Positions 3,100 through 64,000 of a stretch of DNA of 64,000 bases are shown in pieces. The translations under genes were made by a program, and so were the position numbers. Source of the stretch: Mangrovimonas yunxiaonensis (GTDB lineage Bacteria; Bacteroidota; Bacteroidia; Flavobacteriales; Flavobacteriaceae); NCBI RefSeq assembly GCF_000733475.1, contig NZ_JPFK01000005.1:248001-312000 (forward strand). The letters run 5' to 3'. The first letter of the stretch is position 1; each line of letters starts with the position of its first letter. Below the pieces are notes generated by a model. That model saw nothing but the letters and a program-made list of their open reading frames with translations, did no database searches and was not told where the DNA came from.

Positions 3100-3960
3100 T
3101 TAGTTAAAAATATCATCACACGTAAAAATCTCGTTTAATCGCACGCCTTTTTCAGTATGTTTTACCGTGATGATTTCATGATGTGCGTCGTGCTCTAAAA
3201 ATAAATAATAGTTGTTGTCTGCGGCTAGATTAAGAAAGGTTTCTTTTTCGTCAAGCGTAAGCAATGGTCTGGTATCGTACCCCATAACGTAAGGAAGCGG
3301 CAAGTGCCCTGCTGTTGGTAACAAATCGGCCATAAAGCAAATGGTTTTTCCTTGGTAGTTAATCATGGGGATCATTTGTTTTTCGGTATGGCCATTGGCG
3401 AAAAAAATATCGAACCCTAGTGCGGTGTTTTTAAGCAGCTTTTGTTCTGGCAAAGCGGTAAATTTAAGCTGTCCAGAAGCCTCCATAGGGAGGATGTTTT
3501 CTTTTAAAAAAGAAGCTTTTTCGCGGTTGTTGGGTTGTGTTGCCCATTGCCAATGGGCGCTATTGCTCCAAAAGTGAGCATTTTTAAAAGCAGGCTCGTA
3601 GCCGGTTCTGTCTTTGTTCCACTGTATGCTACCGCCACAATGGTCAAAATGCAGATGGGTCATGAATACATCGGTAATATCATCTCTATGAAAGCCGTAT
3701 TTTTTTAAGGATTTATCTATCGAGTCGTCGCCCCAAAGGTAATAGTAGCCAAAAAACTTATCGTTTTGTTTGTCTCCCATTCCCGTATCTATAAGGATTA
3801 AGCGGTTGTTGTCCTCAATTAACAGGCAACGCGCTGCAATATCAATCATGTTATTGGAGTCGGCCGGATTGGTTTTATGCCAAAGCGATTTTGGAACCAC
3901 ACCAAACATGGCGCCACCATCTAATTTAAAATTTCCAGCTTCAATAGGATATAGTTTCAT
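3100..3960 (-). CDS. MBL-fold metallo-hydrolase
   Basis: Cytoplasmic metallo-beta-lactamase-fold hydrolase, 286 aa, with no signal peptide. The dinuclear zinc motif THLHFDHCGG (HxHxDH) is near residues 113-122. The later ligands fit ANGHTEKQM (His) and FMADLLP (Asp), and the C-terminal His fits LEHDAHHE. The overall layout resembles the lactonase-like branch of the superfamily (AttM/AidC-like), but many members of that branch are uncharacterised and I would not claim quorum quenching. It is first in a probable two-gene unit with the S8 protease. The 134-bp gap to the divergent DUF202 gene should hold promoters for both directions. Confidence 0.9.
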   Translation of the reverse strand: MKLYPIEAGNFKLDGGAMFGVVPKSLWHKTNPADSNNMIDIAARCLLIEDNNRLILIDTGMGDKQNDKFFGYYYLWGDDSIDKSLKKYGFHRDDITDVFMTHLHFDHCGGSIQWNKDRTGYEPAFKNAHFWSNSAHWQWATQPNNREKASFLKENILPMEASGQLKFTALPEQKLLKNTALGFDIFFANGHTEKQMIPMINYQGKTICFMADLLPTAGHLPLPYVMGYDTRPLLTLDEKETFLNLAADNNYYLFLEHDAHHEIITVKHTEKGVRLNEIFTCDDIFN

Positions 3961-12647: not shown

Positions 12648-12655
12648 TATATTTG
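12648..12655 (+). promoter_or_regulatory. -7 promoter box TATATTTG upstream of the phase-variable lipoprotein
   Basis: Perfect TAnnTTTG element. A TTAA, a partial match to TTTG, is at 12624-12627, 20 nt upstream. Transcription would begin about 12662, giving a short leader before the ATG at 12678. This supports that ATG as the real start despite the frame problem that follows. Confidence 0.6.
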
Positions 12656-12677: not shown

Positions 12678-14452
12678 ATGAAAAATGATAATATTACCAA
12701 ACCAAACCAAACCAAACCAAACCAAACCACAATAGGTATGCGTATTTAAGTTTATGTATATTTGTTTTTGTTCTCTGTTTTCAAGCTTGTCAAAAAGATG
12801 ACGAGTTTGTAGATGGAAATAACCAATCTTCATTAAAAGAAGAAAGTAGGTTAAGTGTTATTTCTCTTGAGGAGTTTAGCCAAGAAAGTCAAACACAAAG
12901 ACAGTTAGATAAACTAAGAAAAATATTTAACGTTACTAAGCATAAAGAAAACCTTAGCGTTAACGAGAGAGTAACATCTACTGATGGTGAAATCACCTTA
13001 TTAACCGATAAAATAATTAAAGTAGTTACCGATTCTTCTGCTACATACTCCTTTTTGTTAGAAACCCCTACTTTTCAGACTTCTGCATTCGAAAATCTAG
13101 TTTTAGAAATTAAACACGATACCCTTATAAATTATTATTTGTTTAGGTACATAGACCGAGAAAAAGTTACTGATACAGAATTTAACTATGATTTAAGTGT
13201 TCAAAATATAGATGAAGATATTTTTACTTTGTCATCATTGTTAAATGAAAGTTCAAAAATTGTGTGGAGTTATGGAGGCTGTGATTATCATTACGTAATG
13301 AAATGTACTGATTGCGATGGAGGTTGCGGTGATTGTTTTCTTGAATTGTTTGCTGTCACTTGTTCAGGGGGAACAGGAAATACATCAGGAGGCGATGGCG
13401 GTAACACGTCAGGCGATGGAGGTACCATTGGTTCAGGTGACTTAGGAGGCACAGGTACAGGTGGCACAGGTGGAGGTGATGGACCAACCGACACCTCGGG
13501 CGATGGTGTACTTGACGGAGACCATGGCGGAGATGAAACAGTCCCCATAAGCACATCGCCAATAGGGGTTAATGAGCCTAGTGACAAAGACGATATTATA
13601 GATTGCCTTGGCGGTGCAGGTAGCTTAACCTTAGCCCAACAAAACTGGTTAAATAATGCGAGCGAGGTAATGCTTAAAAAAATGGCAACAGCCATTAAAA
13701 AGTCGGGTTGTAGTGCTGTAAGCGATATTATTTTAGATTATATTGATAATAACGAAACCCAAGATTTTGATGACTATGTGGATGAGGAACTTGAGTGTTA
13801 CTATTTAAATGAGCTAACAGATAATGCTTATTTTCAAAACGCATTAAACGATTTACAAAATTATATTGAGGACACCACCGAAACCAACGAGCAAGGCTTT
13901 GAGGTTTCATTTGCCAATAATGTACTATCTACCAATTTTAAAGAAGGTAGTTACGATGGCGTAAAATTAAACCATGGCGGTAATATAACAGGCGGGATGC
14001 ATACCCACCCAGACCAAGGTAATCCTATGTTTTCGGGGAAAGATGTCTATAAATTATTTAAATATTGCCAAAGTATAAGTTATAATACTAATAGTGACAG
14101 TAATGTAAACATACATAATGCCTTTTCTGTAGTAACTACACCTAATGGTACGTATATGATAAAAGTAAGAGACTATAATGCATTAAGATATTTATGTAGT
14201 AGTAATGTATTAGGTAATAACTCAGAGCAAAGACAAGATAGACTAGATGTTTTGATATCTTCAGGAACTTATGGAACTAGTAATGAGAATGATTATTTAA
14301 GAGAATTTTTAACAACTTTTGAAGACATTGCAGAAGATTATGGTTTATCTAAATCACCGCTATATTTATATAAATTAAACACGACAGACCATACGTTTGA
14401 AAAAGTAAATCTGGACGCTAATAATCAACCAGAAATAACACCTTGTAATTAA
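12678..14452 (+). CDS. Gly-rich lipoprotein with JAB-like HxH...S..D motif; start out of frame through a CCAAA repeat
   Basis: The ATG at 12678 opens MKNDNITKPNQT but reaches TAA at 12747 because the CCAAA tract holds six units. Reading the other frame from about 12692 gives YAYLSLCIFVFVLCFQACQK, a complete lipoprotein h-region and lipobox (FQAC). It then runs without stops to 14452 and contains no ATG before 13055. Loss of one unit, or gain of two, joins the ATG to this frame. Most annotators would call only 13055-14452 (465 aa). The mature part has a Cys-rich spot, a Gly/Ser/Asp/Thr linker (about 13360-13540) and a C-terminal domain with MHTHPDQGNPMFSGKD. That resembles the JAMM/JAB metallopeptidase metal site with one extra spacer residue. 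Function unknown; likely surface-exposed or periplasmic. Confidence 0.75.
12697..12729 (+). repeat. Pentanucleotide microsatellite (CCAAA)6 plus CCA
   Basis: Six perfect CCAAA units plus a partial seventh lie seven codons after the ATG at 12678, inside the n-region of a lipoprotein signal peptide. Unit length is not a multiple of three, so slipped-strand changes in copy number switch the frame. Confidence 0.95.
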
Positions 14453-14463
14453 AAAAAGAAACT

Positions 14464-15090
14464 ATGAAGTCAATAATTAAAGTTATATTTATACTATTTT
14501 TAGTAAGCTGTAAAGCACAAAATATTATACCTCTTTATAATGAGGGGAATTACCCTAATTATATTAGTGGAGTTCCTGAATATTATAAAGATGTCGGTAA
14601 CGATTTTAATCCATACGTAGGAACATGGTCAGGTAACTTGGGTAATGACACATTAACCATAACCTTTAATAAAGTGGTTAATTTTTTAGATTCATCTGGA
14701 GATTATTTTGACTTTTTAGTGGGTGAATTTCGCTATGAGGAGAATGGACAAGTATTAGTGGATACTTATCCAGAAATAATATCAAACGACCCTAATGGTG
14801 TTCCTTTAATTATTAATCCTAACCCATGGAATAATAGTATTAATTCGACTAGTATAAGAACTTATAACAGAGGTTTTCCACCTTGTCCGGAATGCGCTCC
14901 CAATACCCGATTTATTTTTTTGAGTATTGTAGAGCCTAACGATATATGGGGTAAAATACGTATGGCTAGGTTTGAAGAAAATGGTGTGGAAAAATTACGT
15001 ATGCGAATTACAAATACCTATGCAGGAGATAGTCCCAACGAGCTGTCTATACCCGAAAATAGTATTTGGACTTTGGTTAAGCAGGAGTAG
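14464..15090 (+). CDS. DUF6705-like flavobacterial lipoprotein
   Basis: Small exported lipoprotein of 208 aa: signal MKSIIKVIFILFLVSCKAQ with lipobox VSC, then the N-terminal pattern IIPLYNEGNYPNY and NPYVGTWSG. These match the layout I know from the DUF6705 family of flavobacterial lipoproteins. The body is beta-rich, with a CPEC pair near residue 140. It begins 11 bp after the phase-variable lipoprotein, so its expression may be coupled to that gene by transcription or by polarity when the first gene is out of frame. Function unknown. Confidence 0.75.
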   Translation: MKSIIKVIFILFLVSCKAQNIIPLYNEGNYPNYISGVPEYYKDVGNDFNPYVGTWSGNLGNDTLTITFNKVVNFLDSSGDYFDFLVGEFRYEENGQVLVDTYPEIISNDPNGVPLIINPNPWNNSINSTSIRTYNRGFPPCPECAPNTRFIFLSIVEPNDIWGKIRMARFEENGVEKLRMRITNTYAGDSPNELSIPENSIWTLVKQE

Positions 15091-51024: not shown

Positions 51025-52383
51025 TTACTTTACTAAGTTAATTTCAACTCTTCTGTTGTTCGCTCTACCAGCTCTAGTGCTGTTAGTGTCGATAGGCTTG
51101 TCTTCACCATAGCCCATTGAAGATAATCTAAACTGATCTACACCGTTAGCTACTAAGTATTCTTTTACAGAAAGGGCACGTTTTTCAGAAAGGCCTTGGT
51201 TAAGCTTGCTGCTTCCAACGCTATCAGTGTGTCCTTCAACAGTAAATTTAGCTGTTGGGTATTCGTTTAAGATGGCGATAATATCGCTTAACACTTTTTC
51301 AGACTCAGATTTAATAGATGCTTTACCTGTGTCGAATAAGATGGTCTTAGCATAAGCGTTAAGTGTTTTTTGCACTTCTTCAGTTACTTCTGGGCAACCG
51401 TTGTTAGCTACAGTACCAGCAACATCTGGACATTGGTCGTCTTTATCTAAAACGCTGTCACCGTCGCTATCTGGCCATGGGCAACCGTTGTTTTCAGCAG
51501 GACCAGCTTCGTTAGGACAGTTATCATCGTTATCAGCAATACCGTCACCGTCAGCATCTGGACATCCAGCTAAAGCTTTTTCACCAGCTACTGTTGGGCA
51601 GTTATCATCTTTGTCAGCAACACCGTCACCGTCAGCATCTGGACAACCGTTAAACTCAGCTAAACCAGCTTCGTTAGGACAATCGTCTTTTCCGTCTTCG
51701 ATACCGTCGCCGTCAGAATCTGGACAACCGTTAAATTCAGCTAAACCAGCAACTTCTGGACAAGCATCGTCTTTGTCGTAAATGCCGTCACCGTCAGTGT
51801 CTTTTCCACCAAATCTAAATGAAATTCCAGCAGTATGTTGGAAATGTGTCGCTAAGTAATCTTCGAAAGCATGCTTGTAAGCACTTTGGAAGTTTAATCC
51901 AATGTTTTCAGATAACCAAAAGTTTAATCCTAGTGTACCGTTTAAAGTACCAGCGCCAATTTCATCAACCCAAGTATAACCACCGCCAACACCTAAGAAA
52001 GGCTCAACAACTTTTGTGTTTAATAATTGAGAAAAGCTATATTTTACTGTTCCATCAATACCATAGTATGATAAATCGTTAGCTTCTGCATCACCAAACT
52101 TATCAATTTTGTTGATAGATCCTGTTACGCCTAAGCTAAAGCCACTGTCTAAATATCTTGCAACAGATATGCTAGAAAGTGAAGGTAATACGTTCCAGTG
52201 GTCTGGCGCGTTAAAGTATTCGTCAAAATATCCACCAAGAGGAGCGTCTTCGCCAGTTGGATAGAAATCCACAGCGTTCACCCCAATACTAATGGCCCAA
52301 GGGTTGTTTTCATCTTGCGCATTAACATTGCTTAAGCCAAAAACAAGCAACATCGCGAACAATAATCTGCTAAGATTTTTCAT
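51025..52383 (-). CDS. OmpA family protein with thrombospondin type 3 repeats
   Basis: 452 aa outer-membrane protein. Signal peptide ending SNVNAQ, an 8-strand barrel (about 25-200; [31 protein letters not shown]), four to five Ca-binding TSP3 repeats (about 200-335: [19 protein letters not shown] and kin), then an OmpA peptidoglycan-binding domain (about 345-450; [29 protein letters not shown] end). It links the outer membrane to peptidoglycan. The ATG at 52383 is preferred to a TTG two codons earlier. It has a strong promoter and terminator. Confidence 0.97.
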
Positions 52384-63095: not shown

Positions 63096-64000
63096 TTACT
63101 CTATTATTATCTTTTTTGCAGATTTACCTTGGTCTGTTTCCACTTCAAAAACATACATGCCGCTGGATAGGTTTTTAATATCTACGCTTTTATTTTTTTC
63201 TGAATAAAGGTACCTGCCTTTTATGGTATAGATATTTACCTGTTTTAATGTTAGTCCTTTATTCAAGTTTATATTAAAAACATCTCTTACTGGATTAGGG
63301 TAAAAACTAAAGTAATCGTTTTCAAAGCTTTTGGTTGACATTGTTGCGCTTAAATCATACACACGCACATGGCCTGAATTTGCACCGTTTTCATCGTTAA
63401 AGGGAGCGCCAATGGCAACAATACCCCCATCAGAGGACAGGCTTACAGAATTCCCAGATTGATCATCTGCAGCTTCACCATCAATATCACTGCCTATCTG
63501 GACCCAACTACCCGATTGATTCTCATACACACGCACATGGCCTGAATCTGTGCCGTTTCCATCGTTATTATAAGCACCAATGGCAACAATACTCCCATTA
63601 GAGGACAGGCTAACCGACTGTCCAGAACGGTCAATTGCAGCTTCACCATCTATGTCACTGCCTATCTGGACCCAATTACCCGATTGGTTCTCATACACAC
63701 GCACATGGCCTGAACCTGTACCGTTTCCACCATTAAAGTGAGCACCAATGGCAACAATACTCCCATCAGAGGACAGGCTAACCGACCGTCCAGAACTGTC
63801 AATTGCAGCTTCACCATCTATGTCACTGCCTATCTGGACCCAATTACCCGATTGGTTCTCATACACACGCACATGGCCTGAATCTGTACCGTTTCCATCG
63901 TTTGAGGAGGCACCAATAGCAACAATACTCCCATTAGAGGACAGGCTAACAGAAACTCCAGAACGGTCACTTGCAGCTTCACCATCTATGTCACTGCCTA
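63096..64000 (-). CDS. FG-GAP-like tandem repeat protein with T9SS sorting tail (N-terminus beyond window)
   Basis: Partial protein, continuing off the right edge with no stop. Repeats of 56 residues, each like GSDIDGEAAIDSSGRSVSLS followed by IVAIGAHFNGGNGTGSGHVR and VYENQSGNWVQI. About 3.9 copies are visible. A C-terminal type A Por sorting domain (YFSFYPNPVRDVFNINLNKG, ending VETDQGKSAKKIIIE) follows. Exported via type IX secretion and likely surface-attached. The internal Met at 63872 is not the start. Confidence 0.92.
   Translation of the reverse strand, partial: GSDIDGEAASDRSGVSVSLSSNGSIVAIGASSNDGNGTDSGHVRVYENQSGNWVQIGSDIDGEAAIDSSGRSVSLSSDGSIVAIGAHFNGGNGTGSGHVRVYENQSGNWVQIGSDIDGEAAIDRSGQSVSLSSNGSIVAIGAYNNDGNGTDSGHVRVYENQSGSWVQIGSDIDGEAADDQSGNSVSLSSDGGIVAIGAPFNDENGANSGHVRVYDLSATMSTKSFENDYFSFYPNPVRDVFNINLNKGLTLKQVNIYTIKGRYLYSEKNKSVDIKNLSSGMYVFEVETDQGKSAKKIIIE
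63350..64000 (-). repeat. 168-bp coding tandem repeats
   Basis: Repeat anchor CCTATCTGGACCCAA occurs at 63493, 63661 and 63829, and its start again at 63997, each 168 bp apart. Copies differ mainly at scattered codons, indicating recent or concerted amplification. More copies should lie to the right. Confidence 0.93.

Follow-up and report, generated by a model that had tools for sequence, protein, structure and literature searches.

The window analysed here is a 64,000-nucleotide stretch of the Mangrovimonas yunxiaonensis genome (contig NZ_JPFK01000005.1, positions 248,001 to 312,000, forward strand), and our subject is a lipoprotein gene within it that carries a tract of six CCAAA units close to its start. 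We consider it probable that this tract is a contingency switch, OFF as sequenced, on a likely surface-displayed polymorphic toxin accompanied by a DUF6705 immunity gene. Slipped-strand mispairing would add or remove CCAAA units in the stretch that separates start codon and signal peptide, and the lipoprotein would be produced at some tract lengths only, the sequenced length being an OFF state. The predicted protein would comprise a signal peptide, a lipid anchor, the export signal QKDDE, a conserved N-terminal module, a glycine-rich linker and an interchangeable toxin domain, which in this gene is JAB/JAMM-like; the DUF6705 lipoprotein encoded directly behind it, whose gene starts at an ATG of its own and lacks a repeat, would be the immunity partner. 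That slippage is the cause, that switching is reversible, and that the protein is displayed, toxic and neutralized by its partner are proposals made here from sequence. An earlier note on this DNA had suggested a phase-variable surface gene in the OFF state, and this gains support from repeats in homologues, a two-unit difference between paralogues, tracts of about 2-11 units in Algoriphagus, and the intactness of the OFF genes.

The features of the locus, in window coordinates, are as follows.
12648-12655, + strand: TATATTTG, -7 box of Bacteroidota type, TAnnTTTG (from the sequence)
12678-12749, + strand: first ATG with a short frame that ends at a TAA
12685-12687, + strand: second ATG, in the third frame
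12697-12726, + strand: six CCAAA units, with partial units 12696-12729 (from the sequence and Tandem Repeats Finder)
12725-12787, + strand: lipoprotein signal peptide in the protein's frame (end of n-region, h-region, lipobox; from the alignment)
12788-12805, + strand: predicted lipidated Cys and export signal QKDDE (consensus in PMC5080379)
12788-13387, + strand: conserved N-terminal module of the lipoprotein family
13360-13560, + strand: Gly/Ser/Thr-rich linker, approximate
13592-14449, + strand: variable C-terminal region with the JAB/JAMM-like domain; stop codon at 14450-14452
14464-15090, + strand: DUF6705 lipoprotein gene, predicted immunity partner

The earlier note had described (CCAAA)6 behind the ATG at 12678, a stop in the frame of that ATG at 12747, and a signal peptide and whole downstream protein lying in another frame, all of which is borne out by the sequence. 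The six units occupy 12697-12726, where Tandem Repeats Finder reports ACCAA in 6.8 copies (12696-12729) with 100% matches; the frame of ATG 12678 ends at the TAA of 12747-12749; and the frame of the protein is open and intact over 586 codons (12692-14449), out of frame with ATG 12678. The signal sequence NHNRYAYLSLCIFVFVLCFQAC sits in the protein's frame, not in that of ATG 12678. The frame arithmetic given there for loss and gain of units is also correct, the lipobox Cys codon at 12788 lying 110 nt from ATG 12678. Its statement that the protein's frame has no ATG before 13055 holds as far as it goes, but 13055 itself is a TTG and the earliest in-frame ATG is at 13298. The second ATG (12685) belongs to the third frame, so that neither ATG enters the signal at the sequenced tract length, which is the sole residue class with this property. 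A non-triplet tandem repeat is present between the start codon and the gene body, as in a simple sequence repeat contingency locus. Upstream, TATATTTG at 12648-12655 lies 22 nt 5' of ATG 12678 and presumably represents the TAnnTTTG box.

The length of the CCAAA tract is far beyond chance. When perfect repeats with units of 2-14 and at least 2.9 copies are considered, the longest in 400 kb of the contig outside the window is 18 nt and the longest in five Markov-simulated sequences of 400 kb size is 15 nt. Four CCAAA units in succession were found in only 4 of 397 genomes of the taxonomic family, Flavobacteriaceae, the window's genome among them.

To place the tract in its family, we use a homologue panel that was found via the mature protein and is therefore blind to the start codon. 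It comprises 111 profile-matched places with a limit near E 1e-11 (G226:C73, with E 8.9e-12, is excluded), less three without a recognisable lipobox (L110, L114 and L118), which gives 108 members; since these are related to one another, P values serve as guides. The earlier note had regarded relatives with an equally broken frame and no repeat as evidence against a switch. In the panel, 15 of the 108 homologues bear a non-triplet repeat of their own in the corresponding place, at most 150 nt 5' of the lipobox Cys (at least 2.9 copies and 14 nt, non-triplet period). The arrays have units of 4 (n=1), 5 (n=3), 7 (n=10) or 8 bases (n=2), and the units are diverse: ACCAA, ACAAA, ACAA, AACACCG, CAACACG, AAGAACC, CTCAAAC, CAAACGC, AAACATCG and others. 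As different units occupy one place, the arrays appear to have originated repeatedly and independently. Left out of this count are a TTA triplet repeat 145 nt before the Cys of L049 and mononucleotide tracts, for example the C8 of L054, a gene that is OFF.

Arrays of at least 20 nt with 4-, 5-, 7- or 8-base units number 16 in the 16.2 kb preceding the Cys codons; the flanks of these loci, 231 kb downstream and 81 kb upstream, hold no such array. Among SusD lipoproteins from 10 of the 15 panel genomes, a repeat was found in 0 of 30 loci (29 genes), and all 30 of these control loci have an in-frame ATG. Fifteen of the 16 arrays are free of stop codons in all three frames, versus 45-61% of random units. 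The CCAAA unit as such is not exclusive to lipoproteins: in 14 stretches inspected (11 with Bacteroidota titles, from at least 119 matches, and three matches from genomes of the family), the array lies in a lipoprotein n-region in two (L211 and L240), just 5' of a plausible signal-peptide start in three (L321, L323 and L281), and in neither place in nine. In L321 (G358, 1500-1531), about six CCAAA units directly precede the ATG of another lipoprotein, where changes in their number could alter promoter or leader spacing.

Whole-unit differences are seen among relatives. The paralogues L052 and L066 of genome G307 differ in their tracts by exactly two ACAAA units, with identical signal peptides, 98% protein identity over the first 200 mature codons, and no other length difference from the tract through those codons; L089, from a genome of the same genus (G109), has 6.8 ACAAA units. 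Two orthologues from one genus (G040 and G262), both OFF, carry ATCAAAA and AAATTCC arrays, respectively, at the same site. Here and below, a gene is termed OFF when no in-frame ATG lies 12-60 codons before the Cys.

A CCAAA array search of named genomes led to lipoproteins of Algoriphagus yeomjeoni and A. algorifonticola, of the order Cytophagales. They also combine a conserved N-terminus, a Gly linker and differing C-termini, one of which is SprT-like below the cut-off. The hidden Markov model of the window family's module (alignment A4) gave no match to them, and a profile from alignment A1, which includes the signal sequence, scores the Algoriphagus lipoprotein L211 at 3.0 bits. Matches were obtained in 34 of 72 Algoriphagus genomes, and 20 loci were inspected: tracts of AAACC type are present in nine (two of them below 2.9 copies) and a CA tract in one, nine loci contain neither, and one lacks a lipobox. 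In the orthologues of nine genomes the AAACC-type units number 5.4, 5.6, 2.4, 11.6, 3.0, 6.2, 3.0 and 7.0, with one degenerate tract. All nine of these genes are OFF, with both OFF phases represented; five of the nine loci without either tract are ON by some ATG. The ratio of nonsynonymous to synonymous substitution (dN/dS) is 0.07-0.37 in six of seven Algoriphagus pairs, the seventh being not measurable. Separately, in the more distant Algoriphagus family members L341, L331, L333, L351 and L353, a CA or short C tract closely follows an ATG that is not in frame with the signal, and L331 has a further ATG in frame with the signal, 16 codons before the Cys.

The predicted mature protein of the window gene begins with C-QKDDE. 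QKDDE is the exact +2 to +6 consensus of Capnocytophaga canimorsus surface lipoproteins and sufficed there to move a periplasm-facing lipoprotein to the surface (PMC5080379). In the panel of 108, 69 members have K at +3, 97 have D/E at +4 and 64 have D/E at +5; the complete K-(D/E)2 motif, from +3 to +5, is present in 39. A plain protein search finds a relative in 18 of 397 family genomes, the window's own counted, and none in three congeners, and a plain protein scan of the genome contig collection returned 23 stretches with none confirmed. The profile of the N-terminal module matches in 148 of the 397 genomes and 117 of 237 genera, including one congener (G003, L041). Neither Pfam nor NCBIfam has a match to the module above the cut-off, and NCBIfam gave none for ten whole proteins either; a search of the PDB yielded no clear fold for the module (best E 0.034), an absent match that does not imply a new fold.

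Family members share this N-terminal module and a Gly/Ser-rich linker and differ widely at the C-terminus, the arrangement of a conserved N-terminal module with unrelated C-terminal domains that characterizes polymorphic toxins. Pfam matches on 95 C-termini comprise DUF6973, SprT-like and GH19 (n=3 each), Tae4, peptidase M23, Tox-MPTase3, AHH and DUF4056 (n=2 each), and three single matches. The C-terminus of the window protein was modelled as a JAB/JAMM-like domain with a pLDDT (predicted local distance difference test) of 77.6. The best Foldseek match of this model, and the single clear row, is the AMSH catalytic domain (E 2.2e-3, probability 1.00). The 50 VIA rows shown, with Z 7.1-9.6, are nearly all MPN-fold proteins, although by the tool's own warning a Z below 8 can reflect a common arrangement. 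Of the JAMM residues, E, the first H and D are invariant in a ten-row alignment of relatives and the second H is kept in at least 90%; S is present in the window protein and missing from some of the ten rows.

The DUF6705 lipoprotein gene (E 2.4e-21) starts 11 bp after the stop of the window gene, with an ATG of its own and no repeat. A DUF6705 gene is also directly 3' of six of the seven other JAB-type members checked, at a spacing of 11 to 21 bp and with E values no higher than 2.7e-19; the sequence of the remaining locus, L012, breaks off too early for its downstream gene to be judged. It is this gene order, with DUF6705 behind JAB types, that points to a cognate immunity gene. In Bacteroidetes, Tox-JAB-1 pairs with Imm65, the only lipoprotein immunity protein of the collection of Zhang 2012 (PMC3482391). 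Based on the JAB/DUF6705 order and this precedent, we read the pair as a surface toxin and its immunity lipoprotein; the window gene and its neighbour most likely represent a surface-displayed toxin with an immunity lipoprotein, toxicity, immunity and display each being predicted.

A phase-variable surface lipoprotein might also serve a role other than killing, such as nutrient processing, adhesion, or avoidance of phages or predators. Surface antigens are indeed the usual cargo of phase variation, most of the C-termini lack a named domain, the toxicity of the family is a prediction, and the next gene after the Tae4 member, like that after one other member, has no Pfam match. However, a single N-terminal module is found on many unrelated C-termini, several of which are of known antibacterial type, and the regular downstream partner of the JAB type suits polymorphic toxins better, so that we hold a non-killing role to be unlikely.

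The genes that carry repeats are predominantly OFF and mostly intact. In the first family, 14 of 15 repeat-bearing members are OFF, the window gene among them, versus 15 of the 93 others (Fisher p 7e-9, for related members). Among complete OFF repeat genes, 11 of 12 have frames of at least 350 aa (median 558), similar to the 69 of 77 ON genes without repeat (median 521). The OFF orthologues of G040 and G262 show a dN/dS of 0.23 over 572 codons, and the window gene and L027 one of 0.28 with dS saturated; the ratio is 0.39 for L066 and L089, and 0.74 for L052 and L066 across the whole frame, where the C-termini differ.

These data bear on whether the gene is a decaying pseudogene, its frame broken once, its repeat a by-product and its silence permanent. 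The preponderance of OFF states would suit such decay, as would the 15 homologues that are OFF without a countable repeat, one of which (L005/L027) has a 22-bp tandem duplication in its signal peptide. But the frames of the OFF repeat genes are retained at the length of ON genes, the dN/dS values of the two OFF orthologues and of Algoriphagus are low, and decay is not expected to put non-triplet arrays solely before the lipobox; we accordingly give a pseudogene little credence. It is more improbable still that there is no switch and that the protein is made at the present length through ribosomal frameshifting or another start codon, which would directly account for constant OFF frames with intact genes, but no single frameshift suffices because both OFF phases occur, even among the Algoriphagus orthologues, and in 19 of 23 OFF repeat genes, the window's included, the interval 12-60 codons before the Cys contains neither GTG nor TTG in frame.

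Several observations nevertheless weigh against a contingency switch on a surface toxin. On the side of the cargo, the best Foldseek E is 2.2e-3, a VIA Z of 8 is reached by 13 chains alone, the Pfam Prok-JAB match of the window C-terminus is below the cut-off, and at least 73 of the 95 C-termini lack a Pfam domain. As for the repeat, 93 of the 108 homologues do not have one, and the switch is not genus-wide, since L041, the homologue in the congener G003, lacks a repeat and is ON. Intactness alone does not mark the repeat genes, since 12 of the 15 OFF genes without countable repeat also reach 350 aa. Tract variation is known between relatives, with whole-unit differences seen among homologues and in the Algoriphagus family, not among copies of the window gene itself; variation within a population is surmised from these. 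Finally, of the 24 repeat-bearing genes of both families only one is ON, and ON states in nature are for that reason presumed. A neutral switch would be expected to give a third (P 7.7e-4; 1 of 22 and P 1.6e-3 under a stricter limit, with the Algoriphagus tracts below 2.9 copies dropped).

Such a strong OFF bias is unlike a freely switching neutral locus. Because the genes are OFF in nearly every reference genome yet intact, they are probably ON at some time, and we take the bias to mean that ON cells are selected against, either in pure culture or throughout most of the population, with rare cells armed; a culture artefact or another form of ascertainment is possible as well.

A palindrome, TACGTA-N4-TACGTA, was observed 139-250 nt before the lipobox Cys in 13 of the 108 members (L038, L058, L060, L066, L089, L113, L133 and six more), namely in 7 of 15 repeat-bearing genes versus 6 of 93 others, with no exact copy in 231 kb downstream. 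It is absent upstream of the window gene. The window's genome has only two exact copies (C2:223559 and 223703, L193), both located between a gene pair for a NarL-type response regulator and a kinase, which they closely follow, and an open frame whose start resembles a signal; in G109, three palindromes cluster beside a NarL-type regulator (C8:1081142-1081459, L198). The element is possibly a regulator site common to the weapons. In L005 of G346, the closest full-length homologue, there is no in-frame ATG, and the 22-bp duplication of the signal peptide region lies at 3106-3149 on the minus strand. Elsewhere in the window, tandem repeats are found at 51502-51797 (81-bp unit, 3.7 copies, 76% matches) and at 63355-64000 (168-bp unit, at least 3.8 copies, reaching the window end).

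Phase variation by simple repeats is known mainly for adhesins, lipopolysaccharide enzymes and methylases of host-adapted pathogens, and Bacteroidota appear to apply it to surface toxins against other bacteria. The chances are, in our judgement, evenly balanced that Bacteroidota have independently and repeatedly put slippery, stop-free repeats into the n-region of surface lipoprotein toxins as a heritable bet-hedge that is OFF by default, with rare slippage mutants armed, as seen in two lipoprotein families that show no detectable relationship and of which one belongs to the order Cytophagales. If true, interbacterial competition would itself be a bet-hedged trait, and the broken appearance of such genes in reference genomes would be accounted for. 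Since annotation pipelines probably call them frameshifted or start them too late, this class of toxins may be missed.

Among the titles of the matches listed from the open-access literature, none combines simple-repeat phase variation with polymorphic or lipoprotein toxins, and no word starting with "toxin" or "Flavobacteri" occurs in the searched text of a phase variation review from 2025 (PMC11868660). The parts of the system nevertheless have counterparts. In Tox-JAB-1/Imm65, a JAB toxin of Bacteroidetes that bears HxH, S and D is paired with a lipoprotein immunity protein; the toxin is described with an NxxxE motif and on RHS-repeat proteins (PMC3482391), whereas the window's domain is on a short lipoprotein that has HxH, S and D and a lipoprotein partner, with no RHS repeats by Pfam. 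DUF6705 is likened to Imm65 by description only. The same paper (PMC3482391) describes APD1/APD2 of Amoebophilus, also of the Bacteroidetes, as having a signal peptide, a lipobox, a conserved N-terminal domain and polymorphic C-termini, a likeness again by description; they are predicted to act on the amoeba host, and repeats are unmentioned in that excerpted account.

SitA of myxobacteria, described by its authors as, so far as they knew, the first case of a polymorphic toxin being a lipoprotein itself, resembles the window family by description in being an outer-membrane lipoprotein toxin with a conserved N-terminus, varied C-termini and a downstream immunity gene (PMC5562445), but the term "phase variation" is absent from the text of that paper. 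The MafB proteins of Neisseria are polymorphic toxins with immunity genes, often near the surface lipoprotein MafA; the toxin is secreted and is not itself a lipoprotein, and the sole mention of phase variation in the body text concerns the capsule (PMC4287609). The closest parallel to the tract is found in Neisseria opa, where CTCTT pentamers in the leader peptide, a pentanucleotide repeat in the signal-peptide coding region, set the frame through slipped-strand mispairing (PMC3960869). The opa genes encode opacity proteins, adhesins of the outer membrane, and use one unit type (PMC3960869), whereas the window family has lipidated, toxin-like cargo and a unit that changes from gene to gene among 4-, 5-, 7- and 8-mers.
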